Assembly: GCA_016209225.1 (NCBI GenBank)
Contig: JACQWO010000072.1
Location: 1 to 49,765, forward strand
Source of the DNA: Desulfobacterales bacterium
GTDB taxonomy: Bacteria > Desulfobacterota > UBA8473
Reading direction: 5' to 3'
Length of the DNA stretch: 49,765 nt
The notes beneath the pieces were generated by a model. It was not told the origin of the DNA. It saw only the letters and a program-made list of their open reading frames with translations, and searched no databases. Of the stretch, positions 5,584 through 42,822 are shown in pieces. Within the stretch, counting starts at the first letter, position 1. Each line of letters opens with the position of its first letter. A program made the translations under genes and the position numbers.

Positions 5584-5639
5584 GTTTCACCTCCTAATAA
5601 ATCTTTAATGCCCCTGTTATTGTTGTCTACTCCAATAAA

Positions 5640-6437: not shown

Positions 6438-6438
6438 T

Positions 6439-7212
6439 TTACTCCTTCCTTTCTCTGGCCAACAGAGCAGCACCTAAGGCACCAACAACCTCTGGTTTTT
6501 CTGGCACAGTGAGTTCCGAATTCATTAATTCATTCAAAGTTGTGACAAGACCTATGTTTTTGGCTATTCCGCCTATGATAATGACATTACCTTCCAAAAG
6601 AATCCTGTTTGCCAGACCAACAACCCTTGAAGCTATAGATTTGTGGATACCTCTTAATATATTGTTCTTTGGCACTTTTCTGTGAATCATCGATACAACT
6701 TCAGATTCAGCGAAAACCGAACACATAGAGGTAACTTCAATATCTTCCGTTGATTGAAGGGAGAGTTCCCCCATCTCTTCGGGTTTTACCCGCAATGCTT
6801 TGGCCATTGCGTCCAAAAAGATGCCTGTGCCGGAAGCACACTTGTCATTCAATGCGAAATCAACGATATTTCCTTCCGCATCAAATTTTATAGCCCTACA
6901 GTTTTCTCCACCAATATCTATTACCCCATTCGATTTTGGGTAAAAGTAAAGAGCTCCTTTGGTGTCACACACCACCTCTGTTCCCTGTACTGATTTATAG
7001 GGAACCTTTTTCTTCCCAACGCCAGTACTTCCAATGGACTCCACATCCTGAAGGGATATGCCGGCCTTCTCTAAAACATTATCCATAGCCCTTTTAGTAG
7101 CCGCTCCGATATCAATACCAGTAGCCAATACCTCATATGCCATGATTTTATCTTGATTCAAAATTACCACTTTAGTCGATAAAGATCCTGCATCTATTCC
7201 TGCTGTTAGCAT
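6439..7212 (-). CDS. ATPase activator subunit (BcrA/BcrD, HgdC family), first type
   Basis: 257 residues, same fold as its neighbour but clearly divergent. Motifs: GIDAGSLSTKVVIL at the N-terminus, VIDIGGENCRAI (about 98), NDKCASGTGIFLDAM with Cys125, MCSVFAESEVVSM with Cys164, and IIGGIAKNIGLV. Both cluster cysteines are therefore present. It follows the small dehydratase-type subunit by 11 bases and precedes the second activator by one base, so the four genes are tightly coupled. In known systems the two activators form a heterodimer on the catalytic pair. The role as electron-activating ATPase is well supported; the assignment to BcrA or BcrD cannot be made by eye. Confidence 0.9.
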   Translation of the reverse strand: MLTAGIDAGSLSTKVVILNQDKIMAYEVLATGIDIGAATKRAMDNVLEKAGISLQDVESIGSTGVGKKKVPYKSVQGTEVVCDTKGALYFYPKSNGVIDIGGENCRAIKFDAEGNIVDFALNDKCASGTGIFLDAMAKALRVKPEEMGELSLQSTEDIEVTSMCSVFAESEVVSMIHRKVPKNNILRGIHKSIASRVVGLANRILLEGNVIIIGGIAKNIGLVTTLNELMNSELTVPEKPEVVGALGAALLARERKE

Positions 7213-7223
7213 ATCTCCCTCCT

Positions 7224-8330
7224 TTACAACATTTCTATAAAAGCCTGGACTCTGGTTTTCAATTGTCCCAGCCCTGAAAGACTGTGGTCTACCTCCAGTG
7301 TTAAGGTGGGAACTTCTTCCTCCAGTTTTTTCCTGAAAATTGCCGATTCATATACAAAAGGATGACAGTATTTTATGTTGAAATAGATAATACCATCAAC
7401 GTTAAACTCCCTTATAAGTTCCTGAAGATAATCATACCTGTCCTCTGACGGATGTGCACAAGCACAAAGGGTTCTCTCTAAATTAAACCTGACAATGGCA
7501 TCCATGGGGTCATTATTTGGCTTTGTCGTATACCAGAAGTATTTGGCAGAGGTGCAGAGATCATCAACAGCCACAACACCGCCCATATCTTCCACCAGTT
7601 CGATGAGGGTTGGGTTGTCTATGATACTTCCTGTAAGCAAAATCCTTGGACCATCTGCGTTTTTGATCTCTCTGTTTTTTACCTCGTCAATGAGCTTTCT
7701 CAATAAGGGGTTAGCCTTTTCTTTGGGCATTAACATGGAGGCCATTGATGTTACCAGGAATTCAGATCCTGAAATAGCAGGGATGTCCCTCTTCCTTAAG
7801 TCATTCAGTTCCTTGAGTAATTTCCTTGTTTCATCGTAAAGCTCTATGGATTTTTTTAAGGACTCATCCGTTATCTTGTTCCCGCTTAGGTCTTCCATGA
7901 GTTTCTTAAATTTCTCCAGTTCCATGCGATAGAATTTAAACCCCGATTCATCGTACATCTTTTGAGGGTTGTTGACCATATAACAGGGTACGGAATCTAC
8001 ATAGGTGTCCCACATGTTGTAGAGATGTCGTACCGCATCACACGTGTTACATAACACCATGCTGTCCAAAAACCCGAATTTTTTATCCAGGGCAAGATCG
8101 AATAGGTTCCTTACGAATTCACAGGCACACGGTTGGAAGTAGGAATCGGCCTTTTTAATAGGTTCGGGGGTACCAAAGGTAGGATAGGGTAACATGCCGG
8201 CGGCATGGATTATCTCTTCGGGAACATACATGCATCTATGCCCAACCACCTTCCTTCCGTCTTTTTTCCACTCTTCGATTATCTTATTAGGGTTATCGAA
8301 GATGTCTTTCATTGTCTCTAGAGTTCCCAT
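7224..8330 (-). CDS. Benzoyl-CoA reductase / 2-hydroxyacyl-CoA dehydratase small catalytic subunit (BcrC/BzdN-like)
   Basis: 368 residues, close to the length of BcrC, BzdN, HgdB and HadC. Typical family segments are VVGHRCMYVPEEIIHAAGML (Cys33), YFQPCACEFVRN (Cys68, Cys70), VLCNTCDAVRHLY (Cys94, Cys97), LTGSIIDNP and YFNIKYCHPFVYES (Cys322), ending LGQLKTRVQAFIEML. These include the expected [4Fe-4S] ligands. Its ATG abuts the stop of the 418-residue subunit, with GGAGG inside the end of that gene, so translation is coupled. With two activators downstream, a class I reductase that dearomatises or reduces an aryl- or enoyl-CoA is likely; a dehydratase of a 2-hydroxyacyl-CoA remains possible. 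Confidence 0.9.
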   Translation of the reverse strand: MGTLETMKDIFDNPNKIIEEWKKDGRKVVGHRCMYVPEEIIHAAGMLPYPTFGTPEPIKKADSYFQPCACEFVRNLFDLALDKKFGFLDSMVLCNTCDAVRHLYNMWDTYVDSVPCYMVNNPQKMYDESGFKFYRMELEKFKKLMEDLSGNKITDESLKKSIELYDETRKLLKELNDLRKRDIPAISGSEFLVTSMASMLMPKEKANPLLRKLIDEVKNREIKNADGPRILLTGSIIDNPTLIELVEDMGGVVAVDDLCTSAKYFWYTTKPNNDPMDAIVRFNLERTLCACAHPSEDRYDYLQELIREFNVDGIIYFNIKYCHPFVYESAIFRKKLEEEVPTLTLEVDHSLSGLGQLKTRVQAFIEML

Positions 8331-9587
8331 TTATTGCCTCCTTTTGCTTGCCAGTAGAGATTCAACAAACGAATCAAGATTGGCTTTTGAAGTAACATCA
8401 TCATACTCCCTTATATCCAACCCATCCAGGTCAAAGATCGATGTGGGGATTCCTTTATCTTTATATACCGCATCTTTTACCAATCTCATATATCCAGGCA
8501 AAAGCCCACAGCTCCTCTTAACCACCCCTATAAGTCCATCAATCTTAAACTCTTCGACAGCCTTTACAATGAAATCTACCATATTTGGATATGTTGGATT
8601 TACTATATCAACCAGGGCCTTATAGGCAAGACTCTCGAGGGGTTTCTTTGGATCCATCTTAGAAGGATCAAATGCTCCCCCGGCTATATACTCTACCATA
8701 CTCTTCACAACAACAGCGCCGTATTTCTCAACATAGTTGAAGAGCCCCATATTATAGAAAGGAGGCACTCCAAACCACATGAGTCTCAACTTTTCATCCT
8801 CAATAACGCCTTGTTTTTTTTCAACCTTCTCCTTCAGTTCTTCAAGTAACCTTTCAAATAGAGTAACCCCGAGCTGAGTCCCTGGCAGTTGAATAAGTGG
8901 GTAAGCGGCAGTGATGCCATCGACTGTTGACATGGGTGTAGGCACCGTTTTTCTGCAATTGTCTATTTCGTTCCATAAACCCATCATCTTTTTAGTAAGG
9001 TTAATAGACTCTTTTAGTTTGTCCATGTCTACCTTAAATCCATGCTCCTCCATGGAATCTATTGCCCCCTGTAACTGACCTGCAAAGTACTCGATGGCAT
9101 AATCAGGGATATCCTTCCCCCATGTGTTTATAGGGGCATCGAGGAAATAATAAGGGCAATTATGGTGATCAGCAGCGTAAAGGAAGGATTTAGACTCAGA
9201 CATACATGGGAGATTACTGGCTATTATGAGGTCAGGTGAGACAAATAATTTTTCAAGATATGGGTCCCTATCCTTGGCGACTGCACACCCCAAAAAACAC
9301 CTGTGAAAGGCACAGACATCTCTTGAAAAACCTTCCTCCTCAGCGAGTTGTATATAGCGGCCCGACAGCTGTTTCGCCCCTATCATCAGTGGAAGATGCT
9401 CAAGGTAGAGTACCGGTGCATCTGCTGCATGAAATATCTCACGCGGCACTAATCCATAAGACCAGATTACAGGTTTCCCTGCGCTCTTGGCTTCTTTCAC
9501 ACCTTCGTAATATGCCCTAATGGCCTTGCCTATCTCCAATGTGGTCTGCAAATTCTTTTTCCCCGGGGTAGTTACTTTTGTTGCCAT
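8331..9587 (-). CDS. Benzoyl-CoA reductase / 2-hydroxyacyl-CoA dehydratase large catalytic subunit (BcrB/BzdO-like)
   Basis: 418 residues. The N-terminal Rossmann-like half has VIWSYGLVPREIFHAADAPV and the cysteines C92, C97, C101 and C128 (FHRCFLGCAVAK; SNLPCMSESKSF); the C-terminal half has VVKRSCGLLPGYMRLV (C360). The family binds the CoA ester between two such subunits next to a [4Fe-4S] cluster. First of the four coupled genes (large subunit, small subunit, activator, activator) and followed later by its own duplicate at 4330. Slightly shorter than known BcrB/BzdO and nearer to HadB in length, so the reaction type is not certain. AGGAGG lies 8 bases before the ATG. Confidence 0.9.
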   Translation of the reverse strand: MATKVTTPGKKNLQTTLEIGKAIRAYYEGVKEAKSAGKPVIWSYGLVPREIFHAADAPVLYLEHLPLMIGAKQLSGRYIQLAEEEGFSRDVCAFHRCFLGCAVAKDRDPYLEKLFVSPDLIIASNLPCMSESKSFLYAADHHNCPYYFLDAPINTWGKDIPDYAIEYFAGQLQGAIDSMEEHGFKVDMDKLKESINLTKKMMGLWNEIDNCRKTVPTPMSTVDGITAAYPLIQLPGTQLGVTLFERLLEELKEKVEKKQGVIEDEKLRLMWFGVPPFYNMGLFNYVEKYGAVVVKSMVEYIAGGAFDPSKMDPKKPLESLAYKALVDIVNPTYPNMVDFIVKAVEEFKIDGLIGVVKRSCGLLPGYMRLVKDAVYKDKGIPTSIFDLDGLDIREYDDVTSKANLDSFVESLLASKRRQ

Positions 9588-18053: not shown

Positions 18054-18124
18054 AACCAAAGATAATATCTATTGAATCCCGAAGGAAAAGGCAGTCTTCC
18101 CTGTTGATTTTAGGGGTATCATTG

Positions 18125-19549
18125 ATGGAAATTGAGGAAAATAAAACCTACTGGCCAATCGACCATCTCAGGATGGATATTAGAGAGCTTATTGATGGAA
18201 TTCCAGTAGGAGTAGCCCTTATCTCTCCAGATTTACGCATTCATGCCATTAACAGAGCCATGGAAAGCCTTACTGGTTTCGACAGGAAGGAAGCTTATGG
18301 TGTCCCCTGCCGTTATATTATGAGAAACAACCTCTGTACTGGAGAGTGTCCTGCCAGAAAAATTCTGGAGAAAGAAGATCAGATCAGCGCTGAAGGGGAT
18401 ATTATTAATCTCGCTCGACAGAAGGTGCCAGTCATAATCAATCTTTCGCCATTGAAGGACCATGATGGCAAACCTATCGGCGTTATTGAAACAGTCGAAG
18501 ATATCTCTCTGGTCAGGGAGTTTGATCAAAAGATCCAGGGACCATCCAGCTACCATAACATCATCGGTCACAGCCCTCAGATGGAGGAAATATTCAAAAC
18601 CTTGCAGCTTGTTTCTCAAACCGATTCTTCGGTTTTGATAACAGGCGAAACAGGCACAGGTAAGGATTTACTGGCTGAGGCGATCCATCTCTCCTCAATG
18701 AGGGCCAAGGGACCTTTTATCAAGATAAATTGCGGTGCGCTGCCCGAAAACCTTTTGGAATCTGAATTATTTGGACATAAGCGGGGTGCATTTACCGGAG
18801 CAGTTGAAGATAAACAGGGGCGCTTTCGTATGGCTAACAATGGGACTATCTATCTAACAGAGATAGGAGATCTCCCTTTATCCCTCCAGGTTAAGCTCCT
18901 CACCTTTCTGGATGATAAAGAATTTTACCCTCTTGGGAGCAATAAACCGGTAAAATCGGATGCAAGGGTTATTGCCGCAACGCATAGGGATTTAAATGAG
19001 ATGGTAAGACAGGGGACATTTCGAGAAGACCTTAAGTTTAGGTTGAAGGTTATCCGTATAGAGCTACCCCCTCTGAGGGAAAGGGGGGATGACATCAGGT
19101 TGTTAATGAATCATTTTCTGCAGCATTTTTCTAAAAAATTTAACAAGCGGATAACCGGATTTTCCTTGAATTCCATTCCAATAATGTTAAATTACACATA
19201 CCCTGGTAATGTACGGGAGCTCCGAAACATCGTCGAATTTGCCGTAAATCTATGTCAGGATGAGGTAATTCGCCGTGAACACCTGCCTTCCTATTTACAT
19301 GAACCTATAACCATGGGTGTACCCGTGTCTGATAATCTAGCAAACACCTCTTCCAATACATCAACGCCCCCTATGTATAGAGAATCCCTTTACAAAGCCA
19401 CCAGTCATTTTGATTGGGAGAAGATTGAGCAACAGATGATCGTTGAGGCTCTTACTCAATCCAGGGGCAATCGAACAGGTTCAGCTAAACTTCTGGGATG
19501 GGGGAGGGCAACCTTTTATCGAAAGCTGAAAAAGTACAAACTTGGATAA
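18125..19549 (+). CDS. Sigma-54-dependent transcriptional activator with PAS domain
   Basis: 474 residues counted from the ATG at 18125 (AGGGGT upstream; a TTG 21 bases earlier is less likely). PAS domain about 15-125 with a cysteine cluster C-x8-C-x3-C (PCRYIMRNNLCTGECP), which could sense redox state or a metal. AAA+ domain about 145-370: Walker A GETGTGKD, the sigma-54-contact loop GAFTGA and RERGDDIRLLMNHFL. The Walker B region reads GTIYLTEIGD, where Thr replaces the usual first Asp, so ATP hydrolysis may be altered. The C-terminal Fis-type helix-turn-helix is GNRTGSAKLLGWGRATFYRK. No receiver domain is present, so the PAS domain is the likely input. It is followed by an inverted-repeat element. 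Confidence 0.93.
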   Translation: MEIEENKTYWPIDHLRMDIRELIDGIPVGVALISPDLRIHAINRAMESLTGFDRKEAYGVPCRYIMRNNLCTGECPARKILEKEDQISAEGDIINLARQKVPVIINLSPLKDHDGKPIGVIETVEDISLVREFDQKIQGPSSYHNIIGHSPQMEEIFKTLQLVSQTDSSVLITGETGTGKDLLAEAIHLSSMRAKGPFIKINCGALPENLLESELFGHKRGAFTGAVEDKQGRFRMANNGTIYLTEIGDLPLSLQVKLLTFLDDKEFYPLGSNKPVKSDARVIAATHRDLNEMVRQGTFREDLKFRLKVIRIELPPLRERGDDIRLLMNHFLQHFSKKFNKRITGFSLNSIPIMLNYTYPGNVRELRNIVEFAVNLCQDEVIRREHLPSYLHEPITMGVPVSDNLANTSSNTSTPPMYRESLYKATSHFDWEKIEQQMIVEALTQSRGNRTGSAKLLGWGRATFYRKLKKYKLG

Positions 19550-20059: not shown

Positions 20060-21814
20060 ATGCCCGGGATTAAAGAAAGGTTTAGCAAGTGGACAAGAAT
20101 AGGGACATCTGATTCTCTTTATAACGATGACCCCCCCCAAAAGCACTATGACAGGTTGCGCAGAAACCTGATGATAATTATTATCTCTATGGCAATAATC
20201 CCCATGATATTAATGGCTATCATAAATTATCATCAATATCGGAATGCCATAAGGGATGAAACGATTAAACCCATCCAGAGTCAGTTAACCAACCTTAAAC
20301 ATGTTCTTGACATATTCCTTGCAGAAAGAAAGTCTTCTCTTAATCTAATAACCAACTCTTACGATTTTGAAGAAATCAATGATCAGGCAAAGTTAATCAA
20401 GATATTTATGGTTCTACGAGAAGAGTTCAAGGAATTTGTCGATATAGGTGTCATTGATTCTTCCGGTCTGCAAAAAACATACGTTGGGCCTTATAACCTG
20501 AGGGGTAAAGATTACAAAGATCAGGGCTGGTTCAAAGAGGTAATGGTTCGTAATGAATACATAAGCGATGTTTTTATGGGTTACAGGAGGTTCCCTCACT
20601 TTGTTATAGCAGTGAAAAGAGACCTTCACAATGGAAAATTTTGGGTTATTCGGGCCACAATTGATACAGCAAAATTTAATCGTATTATCACCTCCATGGA
20701 GTTAGAACCTGGGAGTGATCTCTTTTTAATCAACCAGGATGGAATTCTACAAACACCGTCCAGGTACCATGGAAAGGTGCTGGATAAGTACCCTCTGTCT
20801 ATGCCGGTTCTAACTCAGATTTCCAGCGCTGTTGTTCAGGAAAGATACGTTTCTAAAGGATATCGGACATTAATAGGGTACGCCTGTCTGGATATAAAGC
20901 CTTTTATCCTGATCTTCATTAAGAAACCAGGGGAGATTATGAAGACATGGTTTGCCTTAAAGAGCGAGTTGTTCTGGGTGCTTTTTTTTAGTTGTATCTT
21001 AATCATTGGGGCCACTTACGGAATAGTAAAAACCCTTGTAAGACACATCCAGGAATCCGATGAACGTAGGGGAACCGCCCTTCGTGAGGCGCAATACGCC
21101 AATAAGCTGGCGTCTGTTGGAAGATTGGCTGCAGGCGTTTCTCACGAGATCAATAATCCCCTGGCTATAATTAATGAAAAGGCTGGTTTAATGATGGACA
21201 TTATAGAACGTAATGAGAATTTCTCTGAAAGAGAGAAGTTCATCGGATTAATAAGCTCTATTCACAGATCTGTGGATCGGTCCCGTGTGATTACTCATCG
21301 ACTACTCAGCTTTGCCAAAAGGATGGATGTCAATCTGGAAGACGTCGACCTCGCAGATCTCCTCAAAGAGGTTATTGGATTCCTTGAAAGAGAAGCCTTC
21401 CACAGAAATATAGACTTGAGATTAAATTTCGATCCAGAACTTCCTGGAATAATAAGCGATAAGGGACAGCTTCAACAGGTATTTCTCAATATTATTACTA
21501 ACGCGTTTGAGGCTGTGGAAAATGGTGGAATGGTTCATATCACAACCTCTATTAAGGATGAGAGCAACGTGCAGGTTATTGTTCAAGATAACGGTCAAGG
21601 TATTCCCGAGCAATACCTTCCCCATATCTTTGAGCCCTTTTTTACCACAAAGAAGAAATACGGAACAGGTCTGGGGTTGTCTATAACATATGGAATTGTA
21701 CAGAAGCTTAGGGGGGACCTTACCGTGCAAAGTAAGGAGGGAGATGGTACTACCTTTACTGTAATTATCCCGATAAAGAGTAAACCAGATTTGGAAGGGG
21801 GTGACCATGTCTAA
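20060..21814 (+). CDS. Membrane-bound sensor histidine kinase (Cache sensor)
   Basis: 584 residues. Transmembrane helices at about 37-57 and 303-323 flank a periplasmic Cache-type sensor with the motif GWFKEVMVRNEYISDVFMGY and PHFVIAVKR. The cytoplasmic half has no clear HAMP. HisKA carries His362 (GVSHEINNPLAIINE); the ATPase domain has an N-box NAFEAVENGG, DNGQGIPE and GTGLGLSITYGI. All catalytic motifs are present. The receiver gene overlaps its end by 8 bases, which makes that protein the likely partner. It is a paralogue of the kinases at 28122 and 31368; all share the sensor motif, suggesting related ligands. Confidence 0.93.
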   Translation: MPGIKERFSKWTRIGTSDSLYNDDPPQKHYDRLRRNLMIIIISMAIIPMILMAIINYHQYRNAIRDETIKPIQSQLTNLKHVLDIFLAERKSSLNLITNSYDFEEINDQAKLIKIFMVLREEFKEFVDIGVIDSSGLQKTYVGPYNLRGKDYKDQGWFKEVMVRNEYISDVFMGYRRFPHFVIAVKRDLHNGKFWVIRATIDTAKFNRIITSMELEPGSDLFLINQDGILQTPSRYHGKVLDKYPLSMPVLTQISSAVVQERYVSKGYRTLIGYACLDIKPFILIFIKKPGEIMKTWFALKSELFWVLFFSCILIIGATYGIVKTLVRHIQESDERRGTALREAQYANKLASVGRLAAGVSHEINNPLAIINEKAGLMMDIIERNENFSEREKFIGLISSIHRSVDRSRVITHRLLSFAKRMDVNLEDVDLADLLKEVIGFLEREAFHRNIDLRLNFDPELPGIISDKGQLQQVFLNIITNAFEAVENGGMVHITTSIKDESNVQVIVQDNGQGIPEQYLPHIFEPFFTTKKKYGTGLGLSITYGIVQKLRGDLTVQSKEGDGTTFTVIIPIKSKPDLEGGDHV

Positions 21815-23053: not shown

Positions 23054-23069
23054 TGGCATGCATTTTGCT
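23054..23069 (+). promoter_or_regulatory. Sigma-54 (-24/-12) promoter
   Basis: TGGCATG-CATT-TTGCT: the invariant GG and GC are exactly 10 bases apart, an excellent match to TGGCAYR-N4-TTGCW. It lies about 50 bases after the second activator site and 230 bases before the ATG at 23302. Two sigma-54 activators are encoded in the window (18125 and 47581). Confidence 0.8.
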
Positions 23070-23119
23070 GTTTATAAAGACAAACGGTAGCAACGCAAAC
23101 CAAAACAGATGGACACGCA

Positions 23120-23280
23120 AAAAGTCAAAATTGGGATGGCAAAGTAAAAAGCTCCAGATACAAGGCGCTCAAATCCTGAGGAGTGAGGCGTACTTAGAGG
23201 TACGCCTCAACAAGCCTGCCCCTGCAAAACCAGGGGAAGGATACAGCGTAACACCGCAGATGGACTTTTTAAGAAGCCAT
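23120..23280. repeat. Dispersed 150-base repeat, copy 1
   Basis: Contains GTAAAAAGCTCCAGATACAA, CAAATCC, GAGTGAGGCGTACTTA and CCGCAGATGGACTTTTTA. The outer parts AAAAAGCTCCAGAT / ATGGACTTTTT are imperfect inverted copies. The second copy is at 29881-30029. This one has an extra block with CAACAAGCCTGCCCCTGCAA and forms the untranslated leader of the next gene. The repeat type is familiar from many Desulfobacterota genomes. Confidence 0.75.
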
Positions 23281-23301
23281 CAAAACAAAAGGAGGTCAAT
23301 C

Positions 23302-23586
23302 ATGAGAAACATTAAGGAAAGAATTGAAGATTGGTTTGCCGCAGTGGCCTTTGCAGAAGCCGGTGAAGGAAAAACAGCAATGGAGATTGCAGGCATACAA
23401 AGGAGACCTCAAAAAAGACTGTCATTTGACAATTTGATGGCGGCTGTTACCTTTGCTGAGGCTGGGGCACATGAGTATGCATTAGAGTTTGCAGGAAAAA
23501 CCGCGCACAAAAAGAGTAGCAAACCCCTATCCATCGTCCTTCCTGGAGTGAAGATATGGTATGGCACTGCTACTGTGACCTGCTAA
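23302..23586 (+). CDS. Small protein with two FAEAGE motifs
   Basis: 94 residues from the ATG at 23302, which has AAAGGAGG 5 bases upstream. An open frame extends further up but only through the repeat. Two copies of a helical unit are visible: WFAAVAFAEAGEGKTAMEIA (about 12-31) and LMAAVTFAEAGAHEYALEFA (about 46-65), each 'AAV.FAEAG....A.E.A', each predicted to be a helix pair. The same unit ends the two receiver proteins encoded next. The C-terminus (SIVLPGVKIWYGTATVTC) is hydrophobic. It is the first gene behind the sigma-54 promoter. No known domain is recognised; it may be a small docking protein for the receivers. Confidence 0.85.
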   Translation: MRNIKERIEDWFAAVAFAEAGEGKTAMEIAGIQRRPQKRLSFDNLMAAVTFAEAGAHEYALEFAGKTAHKKSSKPLSIVLPGVKIWYGTATVTC

Positions 23587-23670
23587 TCTGTCAAGGGTAG
23601 GTCCAAAGTCGCACGCATACCTAATTGTTATCAGTAATGCCTATTTTGCCCCTATGGGAGAAGTGGTGAA

Positions 23671-24174
23671 TTGAAGATTATGCTGGTAGGCAACAACACC
23701 ACGTTTATGGAGAACCTCTCTGAAAAGATCAAAGGGAGCGGCTTAAAGGTGTTTACCTCAAGCAGTGCAAACGAAGCCGTTAACACATTAATAAAGAAGA
23801 AGATTGATGTTGTTGTACTCAATATGAAAGAACTTCAAATGAGTGGGATTGATATACTGTCTCGCATCAAGAAGGTACGTCCCTTAACAGAGGTGGTTAT
23901 GCTCACAACCCCCTCCATTATTCATTTGTCTATAGATGGTATGAAACTCGGTGCGTTCGACGACCTCCTTTTACCTCCAGATATAGGTGACCTTCAAAGG
24001 ATGATAATAGAGGCAGGCATAAGGAAGAAAGAGAAAGAAGCTGAGGAGGGGAAGAAGAAAAGAAAATCTATCATTGATGCCCTCGATGATATCGCGGTAT
24101 CGGCCACTTATGCCGAGGCAGGACAATTTGAAACTGCCATGGAAATATTAAAAAAAGAGAAAAGGAGAAAATAA
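23671..24174 (+). CDS. Pseudo-receiver with C-terminal FAEAGE-like unit
   Basis: 167 residues. The receiver fold is clear, but the acidic pair is lost (IMLVGNNTTF), the phosphoacceptor Asp is Asn (VVVLNMKELQMSG) and the switch Lys is Pro (FDDLLLPPDIGDL); the Thr is kept (VVMLTTPS). It therefore should not be phosphorylated and probably works by protein contact. A basic linker (KKEKEAEEGKKKRKS) leads to DIAVSATYAEAGQFETAMEI, the same unit as in the preceding small protein. The TTG start at 23671 has GGGAG upstream; the ATG at 23680 is an alternative. Its stop is one base from the next start. Confidence 0.82.
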   Translation: MKIMLVGNNTTFMENLSEKIKGSGLKVFTSSSANEAVNTLIKKKIDVVVLNMKELQMSGIDILSRIKKVRPLTEVVMLTTPSIIHLSIDGMKLGAFDDLLLPPDIGDLQRMIIEAGIRKKEKEAEEGKKKRKSIIDALDDIAVSATYAEAGQFETAMEILKKEKRRK

Positions 24175-24175
24175 A

Positions 24176-24625
24176 ATGAAGAGAAAAATGAAGGTACTCC
24201 TGGTAGATGATGAAGAAGAATTTGTTAAGACCCTCGCTGAAAGACTTGAAATGAGAGATCTTGGTTCAGATACTGTTTATGACGGAGAAGGGGCTTTGAG
24301 TTATGTTGAAAATCAGGAGCCTGATGTTATGGTTCTTGACCTTAAGATGCCAGGGATTGATGGTATGGAGGTCCTTAGAAAAGTGAAAAAGGCATATCCC
24401 AACATCGAGGTCATAATGCTGACAGGACACGGGACCAAGAAGGATGAAGAAGAGGCCAGAAGGTTGGGGATATTTGATTATATGGAGAAACCTGTTGATA
24501 TCGATAGTCTAGTAAAGAGAATGAAAGACGCCTTCAGAAGAAAACTCGACAAGTATACGGCTGCTGCAACCTTTGCAGAGGCAGGGGAGGTCGATGAGGC
24601 CAAAAAGATATATGACGAAAAATAA
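24176..24625 (+). CDS. Response regulator with C-terminal FAEAGE unit
   Basis: 149 residues. The receiver is complete: VLLVDDEEEF, VMVLDLKMPGIDG, MLTGHGT and FDYMEKPVD. After the last helix comes YTAAATFAEAGEVDEAKKIY, matching the units in the two genes before it. It starts two bases after the stop of the pseudo-receiver, in an A-rich sequence with AAAGGAG upstream. An active and an inactive receiver sharing one tail suggests they bind the same partner or each other. Confidence 0.9.
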   Translation: MKRKMKVLLVDDEEEFVKTLAERLEMRDLGSDTVYDGEGALSYVENQEPDVMVLDLKMPGIDGMEVLRKVKKAYPNIEVIMLTGHGTKKDEEEARRLGIFDYMEKPVDIDSLVKRMKDAFRRKLDKYTAAATFAEAGEVDEAKKIYDEK

Positions 24626-24656
24626 CGGTTTAATTTAGAACTGTGAGGAGTAAACA

Positions 24657-25211
24657 ATGAAAGAAATAAGAGTGAAGGATATAATGGTGCCTCTTAAGGA
24701 GTATGCAACAGTGCATGAGGATAGTTCTCTGGCTGACGCTGTTTATGCCCTGGAGGAGGCACAAAAGGCATTTGACGTTTCCCGTGAAAGGCATCGGGCC
24801 ATCCTGGTCTATGATAACAATAAAAAGATAGTAGGGAAATTAAGCCAATGGGATGTGATCAAAAGCCTCGAACCAAAATATGACTCCTTTGGAGACTTGA
24901 GGTCGGTGTCTCGTTCAGGATTCAGCCCTGAATTTATCAAATCGATGTTAGAAAAACACAATCTATGGGTGGACGACCTGGATACTGTATGCCACAGAGT
25001 CGCCAAGAAAAGGGTTAAAGAGGTGATGTATGTGCCTACAGAAGGCGAAAAGATAGAAGAGGATGCGACTTTTGGAAAGGCATTGCACATGCTTATTATC
25101 GGTCATCATCAGTCTCTTCTTGTAAGCAGGGGAGAAGGTATTGTTGGTGTTTTACGTCTGGGAGATGTATTCAAATTGGTCTGTGAAAGGATAAAGGCTT
25201 GCATAATTTAA
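24657..25211 (+). CDS. Protein with paired CBS domains
   Basis: 184 residues. First CBS: VKDIMVPLKEYATVHEDSSL, then AILVYDNNKKIVGKLSQWDV. Second CBS: VKEVMYVPTEGEKIEEDATF, then HQSLLVSRGEGIVGVLRLGD. A helical insert of about 45 residues (LRSVSRSGFSPEFIKSMLEK...) lies between. CBS pairs bind adenine nucleotides or S-adenosylmethionine and often gate transporters. The position directly before an SLC13 transporter gene suggests such a role. TGAGGAG precedes the ATG. Confidence 0.9.
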   Translation: MKEIRVKDIMVPLKEYATVHEDSSLADAVYALEEAQKAFDVSRERHRAILVYDNNKKIVGKLSQWDVIKSLEPKYDSFGDLRSVSRSGFSPEFIKSMLEKHNLWVDDLDTVCHRVAKKRVKEVMYVPTEGEKIEEDATFGKALHMLIIGHHQSLLVSRGEGIVGVLRLGDVFKLVCERIKACII

Positions 25212-25256
25212 TGGAATAGCGGAGGTCCTTTGAAGGGAGTAGCGGAGGTAGATAGG

Positions 25257-26756
25257 ATGGAAGAAAGAGGGAGTAGGGGCATACCAGAAGATATTGTTGT
25301 TGCAGTTCCCAACCCGGGGTTTAACTGGAAAAAGTGGATATTTATCTTATTAGGAATTGCTGTTTTCCTTTTTATTTATTTTATGCCGTCATGGCCTGAC
25401 GCAGTAGACCCTACCGGGAAGGCATTCCCTCTATCCAGAGAGGGAAAGGCATCAATTGCCCTGTTTTTGCTGGCCGGTATCTGGTGGGTCTTTGAGGTAG
25501 TACCTATCGGTTTAACGAGTATAGCCATTGGCGTTTTTCAGGCAATCTTTGCGATCCGTCCCGCAAAAGAGGCATTCAGGGACTTTATGGACCCGTCTGT
25601 CATGTTCATCTTCGGCTCAATAGTCGTTGGACTGGCATTCACAAAAACAGGCCTGACGAGACGTTTGGCTTACAAAATGCTGGAGGTGGTTGGCGAGAGA
25701 ACAAGCATGATCCTGTTGGGGTCTCTTGTGGTAACAGCAGGACTTGCCCATTTTATGGCACATACGGCAGCCGCAGCGACTGTATTTCCGATACTCATGG
25801 CTATTCATACCCTTTACGGAGAGGAAGAAGGGCCAACAAGGTTTGGAAAGGCCCTTTTCATCGGTATGGCTTATGCTGCAGGGGCTGGAAGTGTTATAAC
25901 AATCCTCGGCTCTGCCCGTGCGCCTGCTGCGGCAGGAATGTTCAGGGAATTTACCGGAACAGATATAAGCTTTTTTGAACTGACAAAATACATGTTTCCT
26001 ATCGGATGGCTGATGGTCTTTTTTATCTGGGTTTTACTGATGATATTTTTGAGACCGGAAAAAAAGGTAATCCATGGTCTAAGGGACAGGGTAAAAAAAC
26101 TCTCAAAAGAACTCGGTCCCTTTAAAAAGGATGAGAAATTTGTGATCTTCTGTGTCTTGGGCGTGGTTATCACCATGTCTTTACAATCTGTATTTCCTGC
26201 ATTGAAGGCGCTGGACAGGTCAGCCATTATGCTTGTATCTACCCTTCTCTTTTTCTTATTCGGGGTGCTCACCTTAAAAGAGCTCGAGGAGATACCATGG
26301 AATATCATCCTTCTCTTCGGTGGTGCAATGAGTATCGGATTCTGCCTCTGGCAAACGGGTGCCGCTCAGTGGATGGCTATTGAATGGCTTGTAATGTTCG
26401 AGAAGGCGCACTGGCTGGTCTTTGTTTTGAGTATAGCGTTTTTTGTCCTGATTCTGACCAACTTCATTATGAATGTTGCGGCCATTGCAATATCTCTTCC
26501 TGTTTCCCTTGTTGTAGCGAAATACCTTGGTATAGCTCCTGAACCAATCTTGTATGCTTCACTTGTAACGGCAGGTATGCCTTTCTTGCTCTTAATAGGC
26601 GCTGCACCAAATGCCATTGCGTATGAATCGAAACAGTTTACCACTGGAGAATTTTTCGGGTATGGTCTGATACCCAGTTTAGTCCTTATGGCTGTTTTAG
26701 CAGTTGCTCTCTTAGTACTCTGGCCGATGTTAGGAATGCCGATTTTGATTAAATAA
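25257..26756 (+). CDS. SLC13/DASS-family anion transporter
   Basis: 499 residues from the ATG at 25257 (GGAGG 9 bases upstream; a TTG at 25230 has an almost identical upstream AGCGGAGGT). About eleven hydrophobic helices. Family features: WWVFEVVPIGLTSIAIGVFQ, DPSVMFIFGSIVVGLAFTKT, ATVFPILMAI, and near the end TNFIMNVAAIAISLPVSLVV and GAAPNAIAYES, which correspond to the two substrate/Na+ hairpins, though the usual SNT signature is not exact. DASS proteins import dicarboxylates, citrate or sulfate with sodium. Its partners here, a CBS protein and an LCIB-type carbonic anhydrase, make bicarbonate or a related anion worth considering. Confidence 0.88.
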   Translation: MEERGSRGIPEDIVVAVPNPGFNWKKWIFILLGIAVFLFIYFMPSWPDAVDPTGKAFPLSREGKASIALFLLAGIWWVFEVVPIGLTSIAIGVFQAIFAIRPAKEAFRDFMDPSVMFIFGSIVVGLAFTKTGLTRRLAYKMLEVVGERTSMILLGSLVVTAGLAHFMAHTAAAATVFPILMAIHTLYGEEEGPTRFGKALFIGMAYAAGAGSVITILGSARAPAAAGMFREFTGTDISFFELTKYMFPIGWLMVFFIWVLLMIFLRPEKKVIHGLRDRVKKLSKELGPFKKDEKFVIFCVLGVVITMSLQSVFPALKALDRSAIMLVSTLLFFLFGVLTLKELEEIPWNIILLFGGAMSIGFCLWQTGAAQWMAIEWLVMFEKAHWLVFVLSIAFFVLILTNFIMNVAAIAISLPVSLVVAKYLGIAPEPILYASLVTAGMPFLLLIGAAPNAIAYESKQFTTGEFFGYGLIPSLVLMAVLAVALLVLWPMLGMPILIK

Positions 26757-26793
26757 GTAACATAACCCTGAGTGTAGACCAACAGGAGGGTAA

Positions 26794-27507
26794 ATGGGAT
26801 TTGAGGATGTCCTGTGCAGGTTTTTCCCGAAGGTATATACTGAAGCCGATTTTATAGAGAAGACTTACAGTATACTTGATAAAGCAGGTTTTAATGCTGA
26901 CAACACAATTGCCTCTGCCAATGTATGTAGAGATGAGATTTCACAGACAATAGTCAGTCTAATAAGAGAGAGATGGGGAGAGGCATTCAACCTCTCGAGC
27001 CTTGCAGGTATGTTCTTTGCCGGCAGAACAGCCCTGATAGCAGGGATGCATCATGCACCGATTGAGGCCGGCAGGGAACGTTATGTCTATTATGCCTTGC
27101 CTCATATAGCAATCGGTTCTGGCGGGGAGATAGGGCTCTGTAGACGGAAAGGCAGAGAAAAAGAAGGAAGCGCATGCGGCGCCTTGACCGCCTTTCATAA
27201 AGAGATGACAGGGGGCAGGGTCAATCTCTCGATGGACAATGAAGACGTTGAACAGAGCCTTCTTAAGATGCGTCTGTTAAGGGAGATCCCCTATGGCCAT
27301 GTTCCCGACCTTCTTGAGCTTACAAGGATGACACATAAGGTTATCCAGACAGACCTTGAAAATGCACTCAATAATATCGTGGATAAAGAGAGGTGTGATT
27401 ACGCTCTGATGACAGGCATACAGATTCATGGCCCTAATGGCAACTATGTGTGGCCTGCATCTTCTTATGCAGTCATAAACGGAGCAAGACAGGAAATTAC
27501 ATTTTGA
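26794..27507 (+). CDS. LCIB/LCIC-like theta-type carbonic anhydrase homologue
   Basis: 237 residues matching the algal low-CO2-inducible protein B core in order: GFNADNTIASANVCRDEI, WGEAFNLSSLAG, HHAPIEAGRERYVYYALPHI, GEIGLCRRKGREKEGSACGA, MTHKVIQTDLENAL and DYALMTGIQIHG. The presumed zinc ligands (Cys of CRDE, His of HHAP, Cys of ACGAL) and the Asp/Arg of CRDE are present, so it may interconvert CO2 and bicarbonate. No signal peptide, so it is cytoplasmic. Its ATG has AGGAGG upstream and it starts 37 bases after the transporter gene, as the last gene of the sigma-54 operon. A pairing with an SLC13 transporter is unusual. Confidence 0.88.
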   Translation: MGFEDVLCRFFPKVYTEADFIEKTYSILDKAGFNADNTIASANVCRDEISQTIVSLIRERWGEAFNLSSLAGMFFAGRTALIAGMHHAPIEAGRERYVYYALPHIAIGSGGEIGLCRRKGREKEGSACGALTAFHKEMTGGRVNLSMDNEDVEQSLLKMRLLREIPYGHVPDLLELTRMTHKVIQTDLENALNNIVDKERCDYALMTGIQIHGPNGNYVWPASSYAVINGARQEITF

Positions 27508-27664: not shown

Positions 27665-28090
27665 ATGAAAACAATGCTGTTATTAGTGGACGATGAGGAG
27701 AGTTTTGTAGATATACTGGCCGAACGATTGAGGAATCGGGATTTTGATGTCACTACTGCCCTGAATGGGGAAGATGCCCTGCAAAAGATCAACGAACACA
27801 ATGTTGACGTTGCTATCATCGATGTTATGATGCCGGGTCTCAGTGGTATTGAAACCCTTAGAGAGATAAAGAGGCTGAAACCACTTGTAGAAGCGTTAAT
27901 GCTCACCGGTCATGGAACAGTAGAAACTGCCATAGAGGGCATGAAGCTTGGTGCATATGATTACCTGATGAAACCATGTGATATGGACCAACTCTTAGCC
28001 AAGATCGGAGAGGCAAAGGATAAAAAGAATAAACATGAAGAAAAGATCAGGGAAGCAAAGATAAAAGAACTCTCTTCCAGGTTTGTTTAA
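27665..28090 (+). CDS. Single-domain response regulator with charged tail
   Basis: 141 residues. Complete receiver: LLLVDDEESF, VAIIDVMMPGLSG, MLTGHGT, YDYLMKPCD. A C-terminal charged helix (KKNKHEEKIREAKIKELSSR) follows and is nearly repeated in the receivers at 30044 and 33215. AAGGGGAG precedes the ATG. It overlaps or abuts the start region of the kinase at 28122, its likely partner. The tail looks like a coiled-coil docking helix. Confidence 0.92.
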   Translation: MKTMLLLVDDEESFVDILAERLRNRDFDVTTALNGEDALQKINEHNVDVAIIDVMMPGLSGIETLREIKRLKPLVEALMLTGHGTVETAIEGMKLGAYDYLMKPCDMDQLLAKIGEAKDKKNKHEEKIREAKIKELSSRFV

Positions 28091-28121
28091 CCCTATAAGT
28101 TATTTTTGCCCTGTGAGTCAA

Positions 28122-29816
28122 ATGAAAGCTGAATCCGACAAAAATCATCAATACTACCGTACCCTCACGAGAATGATTGTGGTATTAATGATCAGTATCT
28201 CTATTATTCCTCTCATCTCCATCGGGGGGATAACTATTTACTACTACAGCCGATCTTTAAAAAATAATACCATAGTATACCTCGAAACCATCGTTAACAA
28301 ACATAAAATCCACATAGACACATTCCTGGAGGAAAAGCTGGCTGACATTCAGACCCTTGTAGACTCAGCTACTGTGGAGCAACTCCTTGATGGTTCTTTC
28401 TTAAGAGGAAGGCTTGAAACATTGCAAAAGAGGTATGGGGATTTTGTCGATCTTGGGGTTGTAGATAACAGGGGATACCAGCGTGCCTATGCCGGACCCT
28501 TTAAACTTGAATATGCGAGGTATTCTGATGCGGATTGGTTCAAGAAGGCAATGACCAGGGAGTACTTTATCAGTGATGTCTTTCTTGGCATTCGAGGATT
28601 GCCCCACTTCATTATAGCGATAAAAACGAAGGATAATGAGGGGAGAATCTGGATTGTAAGGACTACTATAGATATAGAAAAATTCACTTCACGGGTTGAG
28701 AACATTAAAATAGGCAAGACCGGCCATGCCTTTATCTTGAACCGCTATGGAGAGTTTCAAACGAATCCCAAATTTAAGGATAAGGAAGACACCCATTTTG
28801 TATACTCTATCCTTAAGGAAACATCCCCGGGGGTTAGCGGCGTTTCAGTTGTTGAAACCGAAAAGGAAAAGAGAAAGAGGGTAATCTACGCTATTTCATT
28901 TCTCAAGAATAGAGAATGGATGCTGGTCTGTAAACAGGACTCGGCAGACGCTTTTTCATCCCTTTACCACGTAAGGAAATTGGTTATATCTATCTGTTTT
29001 GTAAGCTTCTTTTCAGTTCTGTTGATAAGCTTTCTCCTTGCAAAAAAAGTAGTGGGACGTATAGAAAGGGCTGACCTGGAAAAGGTAAAGATGCGCGAGC
29101 AGGTCGTAGAGGCAGGTAAACTCGCATCAATAGGGGAACTGGCAGCAGGCATCGCCCATGAGGTGAACAATCCCGTGGCTATTATGGTGGAAGAGGCGGG
29201 TTGGATGGAGGACCTATTGGAAGAAGGGGAACTCGAGAAGGGTGATACCCTTGATGAATTCAGGCGTGCCTTAAAACAGATAAGGGCACAGGGAACACGG
29301 TGCAAGCAGATTACCCATAAATTATTGAGCCTGGCTCGGAAAACCGGCTCACAGTTATCTGACCTTGAATTGAATGAGTTGATCAAAGAAGTAGTTGGAC
29401 TTTCCCAAAGGACGGCAAGGTATAGGAACGTCAAGATAGAGACCGAACTCAGCCCTGATACCCCCCCTATAACTGCATCCCCCTCAGAGCTTCAGCAGGT
29501 TCTTCTCAATCTAATAAACAACGCGATCGACGCTATAGGCAAAGATGGCGGTACGGTCAAGATTAATACCCGCATGGACAATAAGTCTGTAATTATTGAT
29601 GTATCTGACACAGGATGTGGAATCCCTGAAGCCCATATTCAGAGGATTTTCGATCCGTTTTTTACCACGAAGCCGGTGGGCAAAGGCACAGGGCTCGGTT
29701 TATCCATCTGTTATGGGATAATTGACAGGATGGGTGGAACGATAAGTGTCAATAGCGCAGTGGGAAGAGGTACAACCTTTCATGTCCAGCTTCCCATCCG
29801 GCCAGAGGGGAAATAG
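28122..29816 (+). CDS. Membrane-bound sensor histidine kinase (Cache sensor)
   Basis: 564 residues from the ATG at 28122; an upstream TTG would overlap the receiver gene. Transmembrane helices about 19-41 and 287-307 flank a Cache sensor with DADWFKKAMTREYFISDVFL and LPHFIIAIK. HisKA has His346 (GIAHEVNNPVAIMVEEAGWM). The ATPase domain has NNAIDAIGKDGG, DTGCGIPE, DPFFTTKPVGKGTGLGLSI. All motifs are intact. A paralogue of the kinases at 20060 and 31368, presumably from duplication of a kinase-receiver unit. Confidence 0.93.
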   Translation: MKAESDKNHQYYRTLTRMIVVLMISISIIPLISIGGITIYYYSRSLKNNTIVYLETIVNKHKIHIDTFLEEKLADIQTLVDSATVEQLLDGSFLRGRLETLQKRYGDFVDLGVVDNRGYQRAYAGPFKLEYARYSDADWFKKAMTREYFISDVFLGIRGLPHFIIAIKTKDNEGRIWIVRTTIDIEKFTSRVENIKIGKTGHAFILNRYGEFQTNPKFKDKEDTHFVYSILKETSPGVSGVSVVETEKEKRKRVIYAISFLKNREWMLVCKQDSADAFSSLYHVRKLVISICFVSFFSVLLISFLLAKKVVGRIERADLEKVKMREQVVEAGKLASIGELAAGIAHEVNNPVAIMVEEAGWMEDLLEEGELEKGDTLDEFRRALKQIRAQGTRCKQITHKLLSLARKTGSQLSDLELNELIKEVVGLSQRTARYRNVKIETELSPDTPPITASPSELQQVLLNLINNAIDAIGKDGGTVKINTRMDNKSVIIDVSDTGCGIPEAHIQRIFDPFFTTKPVGKGTGLGLSICYGIIDRMGGTISVNSAVGRGTTFHVQLPIRPEGK

Positions 29817-39552: not shown

Positions 39553-42159
39553 GTGTTTTCTTTCCTGAAAAAGATTTTTTTTAGGGGAGACCCCACACAG
39601 AGACAACGTTTTGTCTTTAACGTTGAGGAACTTCGCTCTACATTCAAGGCCCGTTACCATAGTTTCAAACTCCTTCTCAATGCCAACAACAAGGCGCTGG
39701 AGATAATGGCTGATATAGAGCAGTTCCTTCCGGGGGAGCGCCCTTTTGGCATGTCCTTTATAAGGGCAAGCTGTACGGCTTTGTCTGTCAATGTCTTCCG
39801 TATCATCCAGAATCTTAATGAACTTGCCCCCGATAAATATCGGGAATTGTACGGCAGATTCAGGGACATTGAGGGGTCCATCAATCAGATACTTTCCCGG
39901 AGAAGACTGCCAAAAGGGGATAGGCTTGTTATTTCACTTCGGGAAATCAACGGGGAGATGGCCGATGAAACAGGAAACAAGATGGCGGGCCTGGGAGAGG
40001 TAAAAAATCGCCTCCGGATTTCCACACCGGAAGGCTTTGTGATCACAGCCCTTGCCTATCAGAGATTTTTCACCCATAATGACCTTCAGACAGAGATTGA
40101 CCGTCGCCTTCAGTCTTCCAGTGCAGAGCAGATTGATCACCTCTATGCCCTCAGCGCCGGCATCCAGCAACTGATCATCCGGTCAGATATTCCCCCCGAC
40201 CTCGAACAGGCGATCATGGAGGCTTACAGAGACCTCGAGCGGCAGGTCGGAGGCGGGATAACGGTATCTCTGCGTAGCAGTGCCTTGGCGGAAGATTCTG
40301 CCGGAACATCCTTTGCCGGGCAGTATCGTTCCGAACTGAACGTGAGCGCCGAAAATATTATGCAGGCATATAGAGAAGTCGTCGCCAGCAAATACAGTCT
40401 GCCGGCTATGGCTTACAGATTGAACAGGGGGATACGTGATGAAGATATTGACATGTGTGTTGGTTGTATGGTTATGATTGATGCGCTGGCCGGCGGAGTC
40501 ACATACTCTCGTAATCCGCTGGACATGAGAGATGGTTCGATTTCCATAAACTCAGTCTGGGGGCTGCCAAAATCCGTGGTTGACGGCAGCGGGGCATCTG
40601 ACCTGTTTGTTGTCTCAAGGGACAACATGGATGTGATAAAAAAAGAGATCGGGAACAAGGAGTATAAGTTTGTCTGTTACCCTGAAGAAGGGGTATGCCG
40701 TCTGGATATGGCGGGAGAGAAAGCCTCATCTCCTTCACTGACAGATGACCAGGCCCAAGAGCTTGCCCGGATAGCGATGAAAATAGAAGAATACTATGGT
40801 TTCCCTCAGGACATTGAGTGGGGTATTTCCCATGATGATTCCATATATATCTTGCAATCTCGGCCGCTTAAGCAGTTTGATACAGGAGAAAAGGATTTTG
40901 AAGGGGCAAAAGAGCCATTAAACGGGGAATCGTTGATCATCTCAGGTGGGATAACAGCGTCTGCCGGTGTATCCTGCGGTCCTGTTTTTATAGTAAAGAG
41001 AGACATGGATACCCTTCAGTTTCCGGAGGGGGCTGTTCTGGTTACCCCCTCGCCTTTGCCTAGATGGGCTGCTCTCTTGAGTCGGGCTCAAGCGGTGGTC
41101 ACTGAGGAGGGAAGTTTTGCCGGCCATCTGGCAACCGTGGCAAGGGAATTTAATGTCCCGGCATTGTTCGGCATCCCCGGGGCAACCGATAAATTGAGGA
41201 ACGGCGACCTGATAACGGTAGATGCAGAGGGGCGGAAAATATATAAGGGCCGTGTTGAGGCACTGTTAGTGCAATCGGGGCATAAGAAAAGGTTTATGGA
41301 AGGCAGTCCTGTTTATGGGATACTTAAAGAGGTGAGCCGGTATATCGTTCCCTTAAACCTTCTTGATCCGGATGCCCCGGATTTTAAACCGCAGAAGTGC
41401 CGGACCCTACATGATATTACCCGCTTTTCCCATGAAAAGGCGGTTTGGGAGATGTTCAGTTTCGGTAAGGAGCATCATTTTTCAGAGCGCGCCAGCAAAC
41501 AACTGCTAACTGACGTACCTATGCAGTTCTGGGTCATTGATTTAGACGACGGTTTCAGAGATGAGGCAAAGGGAAAGCATGTTAAACTGGAAAACATCTC
41601 ATCTGTCCCCATGCTCGCCCTCTGGGAGGGAATGACCGCCATACCCTGGCGGGGACCACCGCCGGTTAATGCAAAGGGGTTTTTGTCCGTTTTACATGAG
41701 GCAACTACCAATCCTGCACTTGATCCATCCACCCGCTCTTCGTACGCTATCCGGAATTATTTTATGATCTCAAAAAATTTTTGCAGTCTCCATTCGAGGT
41801 TTGGTTTCCATTTCTCGATTGTGGAGGCTCTAGTTAGCGAAAGAGCCATTGAAAATTATATCAGTTTCCAGTTCAAGGGGGGTGCCGCTGACTATCAGCG
41901 AAAGGCTAGACGGGCCTTTTTTGTCGGCCGTATCCTCGAGGAATTTGGTTTCCGTATAGAGGTCAAAGAGGATGCACTTTTTTCCCGTGTTGAGGGAGTA
42001 GAAGAAGGCTTCATGAAGGAGAGACTCAGGATCATCGGTTACCTTATCATCCATACCCGCCAGTTAGACATGATTATGCTGGACGATGCCTCCATAAGCA
42101 GTCAGAAGGAAAAGATCATGAATGACCTCTATTCCATTATTAAGGATTCAAGGGGGTAA
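39553..42159 (+). CDS. PEP-synthase-like dikinase with unknown C-terminal domain (first copy)
   Basis: 868 residues from the GTG at 39553 (AGAGG upstream). Helical N-terminal domain about 1-125; ATP-grasp domain about 130-440 like PEP synthase/PPDK, with SLRSSALAEDSAGTSFAGQY, TYSRNPLDM and QDIEWGISHDDSIYILQSRP; swivelling phosphohistidine domain about 460-575 with His525 in GSFAGHLATVAREFNVPALF. The C-terminal PEP/pyruvate barrel is absent. Instead residues 580-868 form an unrecognised domain with LHDITRFSHE, SRFGFHFSIVEALVSE and NYISFQFKGGAADYQRKARR. It should phosphorylate its own His using ATP and pass the phosphate to an unknown acceptor bound by the last domain, by analogy with rifampin phosphotransferase. 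Cytoplasmic. Confidence 0.85.
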   Translation: MFSFLKKIFFRGDPTQRQRFVFNVEELRSTFKARYHSFKLLLNANNKALEIMADIEQFLPGERPFGMSFIRASCTALSVNVFRIIQNLNELAPDKYRELYGRFRDIEGSINQILSRRRLPKGDRLVISLREINGEMADETGNKMAGLGEVKNRLRISTPEGFVITALAYQRFFTHNDLQTEIDRRLQSSSAEQIDHLYALSAGIQQLIIRSDIPPDLEQAIMEAYRDLERQVGGGITVSLRSSALAEDSAGTSFAGQYRSELNVSAENIMQAYREVVASKYSLPAMAYRLNRGIRDEDIDMCVGCMVMIDALAGGVTYSRNPLDMRDGSISINSVWGLPKSVVDGSGASDLFVVSRDNMDVIKKEIGNKEYKFVCYPEEGVCRLDMAGEKASSPSLTDDQAQELARIAMKIEEYYGFPQDIEWGISHDDSIYILQSRPLKQFDTGEKDFEGAKEPLNGESLIISGGITASAGVSCGPVFIVKRDMDTLQFPEGAVLVTPSPLPRWAALLSRAQAVVTEEGSFAGHLATVAREFNVPALFGIPGATDKLRNGDLITVDAEGRKIYKGRVEALLVQSGHKKRFMEGSPVYGILKEVSRYIVPLNLLDPDAPDFKPQKCRTLHDITRFSHEKAVWEMFSFGKEHHFSERASKQLLTDVPMQFWVIDLDDGFRDEAKGKHVKLENISSVPMLALWEGMTAIPWRGPPPVNAKGFLSVLHEATTNPALDPSTRSSYAIRNYFMISKNFCSLHSRFGFHFSIVEALVSERAIENYISFQFKGGAADYQRKARRAFFVGRILEEFGFRIEVKEDALFSRVEGVEEGFMKERLRIIGYLIIHTRQLDMIMLDDASISSQKEKIMNDLYSIIKDSRG

Positions 42160-42723: not shown

Positions 42724-42822
42724 GCCCGCTGCTGTAGGAGGGGGTAGAAGATGCCCGGCGGAAATTGCTTGAAGAGGCTCAACAGCGGACTCAACAGCAG
42801 GCTTAAGCCCGCTGTTGTGGGA
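42658..42822. repeat. Tandem duplication of the receiver gene's 3' end
   Basis: The segment from GTAGAAGATGCCTACCGACG (42658) to the palindrome recurs 86 bases later as GTAGAAGATGCCCGGCGGAA (42744). The first copy encodes VEDAYRRKLLEESQQRTQQR; the second, in its old frame, would give VEDARRKLLEEAQQRTQQQA and a stop. The second copy now holds the start of the next gene in another frame. Confidence 0.85.

Follow-up and report, generated by a model that had tools for sequence, protein, structure and literature searches.

Little is known about how anaerobes with Wood-Ljungdahl enzymes acquire CO2 and bicarbonate or get rid of them. Among the closest described systems, the Chlamydomonas proteins LCIB and LCIC, which carry a CRDE motif, have no carbonic anhydrase (CA) activity either as recombinant proteins or in the native complex (PMC8825250). 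In Desulfobacteraceae, a cluster encoding a 'DASS-type sulfate transporter' together with CBS proteins and Cache kinases has been described, and the accessible part of that report assigns sulfate through a transporter database, by annotation and not by a transport assay (PMC11887813). Similarly, in Marietou et al. DASS proteins appear among the putative sulfate transporters (PMC5840216). Here, we analyzed a 49,765-nucleotide stretch of DNA from a Desulfobacterales bacterium (contig JACQWO010000072.1; G000:C62; hereafter, the window) in which a sigma-54 motif is followed by six co-directional genes on the + strand (23302-27507). The last three encode a CBS-domain protein (24657..25211, PF00571 3e-12), an SLC13/DASS-family transporter (25230..26756) and an LCIB-family CA homologue (26794..27507). 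The six genes are separated by gaps of 84, 1, 31, 18 and 37 bp and form an operon, as a preliminary description of this DNA had observed when it noted one promoter and short gaps. No mention of an SLC13-LCIB pair turned up in the literature searched.

The SLC13-LCIB pair recurs. Beyond the window, 37 loci in two phyla have SLC13 followed by LCIB on the same strand at a distance of 12-436 bp, and these loci rule out chance adjacency; the preliminary description had asked whether such pairs exist in other genomes and had named a lack of linkage in relatives as an outcome that would speak against its proposal, and the answer is the opposite one. Scanning genome contigs with the LCIB protein, with neighbouring genes disregarded, yielded 13 loci, in genomes whose titles read Nitrospirae, Nitrospiraceae, Nitrospira or Thermodesulfovibrionia, and SLC13 lies upstream of LCIB in 12/12 of those having upstream sequence (in L014 as an SLC13 fragment). 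In a survey of 396 genomes of this Nitrospirota-type phylum, with an SLC13 orthologue defined by at least 60% identity, a full or nearly full LCIB was found in 46 genomes and an SLC13 orthologue in 32, such that 27 genomes have both, 19 LCIB only, five SLC13 only and 345 neither (Fisher test 1e-24, a value that ignores shared ancestry). The two genes are adjacent in 26 of the 27 genomes with both and about 14 kb apart on one contig in the remaining one (G685); two of the five SLC13-only genomes (G703, G778) stop at contig edges. In the phylum of the window, a full LCIB is present in 9/395 genomes and immediately follows SLC13 in six of them. In the LCIB tree, most deep branches show the linkage; one row (L096) is marked as linked though its SLC13 is 14 kb away. 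This repetition across several sulfate-reducer lineages suggests that bacteria may have in this pair an inorganic-carbon system that has gone unrecognised.

The usual order in the Nitrospirota-type loci is a GntR-UTRA regulator, CBS, SLC13, LCIB and a CitMHS-type transporter, to which some loci add a second CBS gene. Divergently upstream lies a PPDK_N/PEP-utiliser gene. The idea that LCIB always accompanies this SLC13 was rejected: Nitrospira-like LCIBs are found elsewhere, and three genomes of the window's own phylum (group f12) have LCIB without SLC13. In some lineages LCIB lies away from SLC13 beside ion transporters. In a Nitrospira-like locus (L084:5876-7675), LCIB directly follows a gene for a Na/Ca exchanger family protein, and a gene equal to it in length occupies this place in two further loci (L085, L088). 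In L112 and L113, LCIB is located beside Mrp/Nuo-type antiporter subunits; L113:1764-8586 encodes three such subunits, LCIB and then a universal stress protein, and is possibly a DAB-like or pH-related unit.

LCIB is an optional addition to a conserved core of CBS and SLC13. Among 395 genomes in the window's phylum, about 70 have an SLC13 orthologue, and LCIB accompanies it in just six. In 40 fetched SLC13 loci of ~17.5 kb each, nearly all of them LCIB-less, CBS mostly lies immediately before SLC13, and receivers and kinases are numerous. One of these (L134, genome G027) has the arrangement of the window, including the small open reading frame (ORF) at its start, and lacks LCIB. In G584 and G598, the interval from SLC13 to the gene after it was searched for another CA as a replacement for LCIB, and only CBS genes were found there. 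Three loci (L131, L132, L133) encode SLC13 paralogues of ~47% identity, and their fetched stretches contain no LCIB; the first motif of L131 and L132 reads SNT, and the neighbours are CBS and TauE-like or PPDK-like genes.

The last gene of the operon encodes a genuine member of the LCIB family, as judged by sequence and predicted fold. The LCIB_C_CA profile (PF18599) matches at 7e-54 with 182.8 bits against a curated cut-off of 25, and phmmer matches LCIC (PDB 5b5x) at 2e-42. The AlphaFold model (pLDDT 88.8) adopts the beta-CA-like LCIB fold, with LCIB itself (5k5w) as the best Foldseek match (TM 0.79/0.82). By profile score, the protein lies far closer to green-algal LCIB/LCIC (211-212 bits) than to diatom PtLCIB4 (78 bits). 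The LCIB core and putative zinc ligands reported in the preliminary description are thus borne out, and the ligands C45, H104 and C128 are kept in 58/58 homologues. In the same alignment, D47 and H87 are each present in 57/58 sequences and R118 in 57/57 rows having a letter; by counting along the alignment, H87 corresponds to algal His162 and R118 to algal Arg194. R46, present in 56/58 sequences, completes the CRDE motif. Because this motif is common to the inactive algal LCIB/LCIC, CA activity is not to be assumed.

The identification of the preceding gene as a DASS/SLC13 anion transporter with a CBS gene ahead of it also stands. The protein matches the Pfam families CitMHS (4e-46) and Na_sulph_symp (5e-46) as well as TIGR00785 'dass' (207.7 bits, above the cut-off of 198.6), and Foldseek matches to NaDC3, NaCT, NaS1 and VcINDY show the DASS fold. 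The two SNT-type substrate/sodium motifs are absent: in nearly all of 78 SLC13 sequences, the first reads AHT (His178 in 76/78) and the second MNV. Arg230 is present in 78/78 sequences, in a segment reading PPN in VcINDY, and VcINDY has Asn in place of His178; both placements derive from an alignment with about 22% identity. The replacement of the SNT motifs marks a divergent clade for which sodium coupling is not assumed. DASS exchangers have basic residues at the sodium sites (PMC7553777), and by analogy an exchanger-like mechanism would be possible for this clade.

We tentatively suggest that the SLC13 protein is an inorganic-carbon (bicarbonate) transporter with a swappable CA, an explanation that we regard as plausible, if somewhat short of probable. 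In this mechanism, the core of CBS protein and SLC13 transporter is joined by LCIB in one operon, SLC13 would move bicarbonate or exchange it for another anion, cytoplasmic LCIB would interconvert this bicarbonate and CO2 at the inner side of the transporter, and this step would supply or clear CO2 for carbon metabolism based on carbon monoxide dehydrogenase/acetyl-CoA synthase (CODH/ACS) in sulfate reducers. Invariant basic residues, His178 and Arg230, would favor exchange or sodium-independent transport over simple sodium symport. Control over expression of the operon would lie with a sigma-54 activator together with the receivers and dCache kinases, and energy state may act on transport through gating by the CBS protein. 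A broader version, which we hold to be doubtful, is that bicarbonate is the substrate of the whole SLC13 clade of sulfate reducers, whose members are currently classed as sulfate importers, and that the clade works with an interchangeable CA (LCIB or beta class) as an inorganic-carbon system tied to CODH/ACS.

Several genomic associations point towards inorganic carbon. A beta-CA is encoded within 4/40 of the fetched SLC13 loci against 0.1-0.4 expected from a rough density estimate (L154 by a PF00484 match; L157, L164 and L171 by homology), and L157 has the order beta-CA, CBS, SLC13 and a full set of Mrp antiporter genes. Mrp antiporters near SLC13 are commoner than chance, with Mrp sets adjoining SLC13 in three loci. 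All three truly LCIB-less SLC13 genomes have a beta-CA versus 9/33 of those with LCIB (p 0.03, from a tiny sample), and a search of the window's genome for the beta class found none. CODH/ACS is present in 33/33 genomes with SLC13 and LCIB versus 9/20 others. A 473-aa left-handed beta-helix protein lies near CBS-SLC13 in 12/40 loci (e.g. L139:10472-11893); it was considered as a gamma-CA and set aside, as its best match is 3c8v, a 'putative acetyltransferase', and gamma-CA and acyltransferase matches are about equally weak.

The inorganic-carbon role put forward in the preliminary description gains from the recurring pair, the linkage to beta-CA and Mrp, and CODH/ACS, and it is weakened by a number of observations. 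We know of no SLC13 protein that carries bicarbonate. About 64/70 of the SLC13 orthologues in the window's phylum are without LCIB, and the CRDE motif makes CA activity of the LCIB protein uncertain. The gene sat is present in 79/80 SLC13 genomes and dsrA scores above cut-off in 32/33 of the SLC13+LCIB genomes; since these genomes are almost all dsrA-positive, the CODH/ACS link is confounded, and its value as proof of a carbon role is weakened by a co-occurrence that is nearly as tight. Moreover, this type of cluster is already published as a sulfate uptake cluster by annotation (PMC11887813).

Sulfate transport is a strong rival to the bicarbonate explanation. On this account, for which the chances are appreciable though limited, SLC13 is a sulfate importer and LCIB an accessory that hydrates metabolic CO2 to provide protons and keep pH steady in sulfate uptake and reduction. 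The window matches the published DASS cluster in its content of DASS, CBS, Cache kinase and receiver genes, including dCache_1 kinases; it also encodes TauE/SafE permeases. DASS proteins have been listed among putative sulfate transporters (PMC5840216), and sat and dsrA are near-universal in the carriers. Conversely, only 1/80 genomes has sat within 20 kb of SLC13, which counts against plain sulfate uptake, as do the repeated linkage to CAs and Mrp antiporters, the altered first SNT motif with invariant basic residues near the expected Na1 site, and the annotation-based substrate assignment in PMC11887813. The sulfate and carbon evidence would be united if SLC13 were an anion exchanger that takes sulfate in and bicarbonate out, with the CA making the counter-ion from metabolic CO2. 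The conserved His178 and Arg230 and the basic residues of known DASS exchangers would fit such an exchange; set against this are the low identity of the alignment behind these positions and a charge balance unlike the known one-for-one dicarboxylate exchange, and we consider it improbable.

A further explanation concerns LCIB only and is compatible with any substrate: LCIB may be inactive as an anhydrase and assist the transporter structurally or by sensing CO2/bicarbonate. The motif shared with the inactive algal proteins (PMC8825250) is consistent with this, and the PtLCIB4 S47R mutant has CRDE at the equivalent position; yet conservation of the zinc ligands, Asp47, His87 and Arg118 is unexpected in a dead enzyme, and at other loci this SLC13 clade has ordinary beta-CAs nearby. 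We rate a silent LCIB as unlikely, if far from negligible. Finally, SLC13 might carry dicarboxylates, with LCIB serving an unrelated carboxylation or decarboxylation step. The nearest solved relatives by sequence are indeed dicarboxylate/citrate transporters, but AHT and MNV replace the substrate-binding SNT motifs across the clade, which is restricted to sulfate reducers. We consider this explanation very improbable.

Upstream of the operon, the sigma-54 promoter-like site TGGCATGCATTTTGCT (-24/-12; 23054..23069, + strand) is a perfect match to TGGCAY-N5-TTGCW and the sole match in the window, where 0.11 is expected by chance. The sister genome (G007) carries the identical motif in a well conserved upstream stretch and has the same gene order with protein identities of 90-94%. 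A PAS-AAA(sigma-54 interaction)-Fis HTH protein (18104..19549, + strand; PF00158 2e-68) is a candidate activator of this site. Domain searches identified dCache_1 in the three kinases of the operon stretch, of which two sensor histidine kinases of the surrounding cluster are encoded at 20060..21814 and 28083..29816 on the + strand. Downstream of the sigma-54 site, the leader of the first gene contains a perfect 9-bp hairpin, GAGGCGTAC-TTAGAG-GTACGCCTC (23172-23206), which occurs once in the window and in a changed version in the sister genome, and which may be part of a dispersed repeat.

The first gene encodes a 94-aa ORF (23302..23586) with two FAEAG-type helix motifs and no Pfam match. Its start was set at the ATG at 23302 with AGGAGG just 5' of it, as a longer call from 23053 overlaps the promoter; homologues are found in the sister genome (94%) and in the LCIB-less L134. 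The next two genes encode the receivers RRa (23671..24174; PF00072 1e-12) and RRb (24176..24625; PF00072 1e-28). RRa reads VVVLNMKEL, with Asn for the expected phospho-acceptor Asp, suggesting that it is a degenerate receiver. The motif A-x-x-F/Y-A-E-A-G is encoded at 23350, 23452, 24109 and 24572, so that the 94-aa ORF has two copies and each receiver a single C-terminal one (YAEAG in RRa, FAEAG in RRb), and is found in the related clusters L026, L134, L146 and L075; it may be a shared docking helix. Elsewhere in the window, two large PPDK_N/PEP-utiliser proteins (39553-42159, 42751-45462) belong to the cluster, and their homologues are the divergent upstream genes of the Nitrospirota-type GntR-CBS-SLC13-LCIB loci. 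A 2-hydroxyacyl-CoA dehydratase/benzoyl-CoA reductase-like set with ATPase activator subunits (4330-9587) suggests anaerobic aromatic or acyl-CoA metabolism.

Should the pair handle bicarbonate, a new transporter family would join the known inorganic-carbon systems, a cluster widespread among sulfate reducers would lose its sulfate annotation, and bacterial LCIBs would become test proteins for the unsettled activity of the algal ones. The window LCIB shares the fold, zinc ligands, His/Arg pair and CRDE with Chlamydomonas LCIB/LCIC (PDB 5k5w, 5b5x; PF18599); the algal proteins are chloroplast proteins without a transporter gene as partner, whereas the window protein is bacterial and its gene adjoins that of a membrane transporter. 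The Desulfobacteraceae cluster (Dvar_38230/38430) resembles the window in DASS, CBS, Cache-domain kinases and receivers, a likeness drawn from gene content (PMC11887813), and the LCIB gene is the addition in the window. The SLC13 protein has its fold and TIGR00785 membership in common with VcINDY, NaCT and NaS1 and differs from them in the AHT/MNV motifs and the invariant Arg230, at about 20-23% identity. With SbtA, BicA and DAB (reviewed in PMC13144422) it shares the proposed task, a membrane transport unit combined with CA chemistry; it belongs to a transporter family unrelated to these, and its putative role in bicarbonate transport is suggested by genomic linkage.

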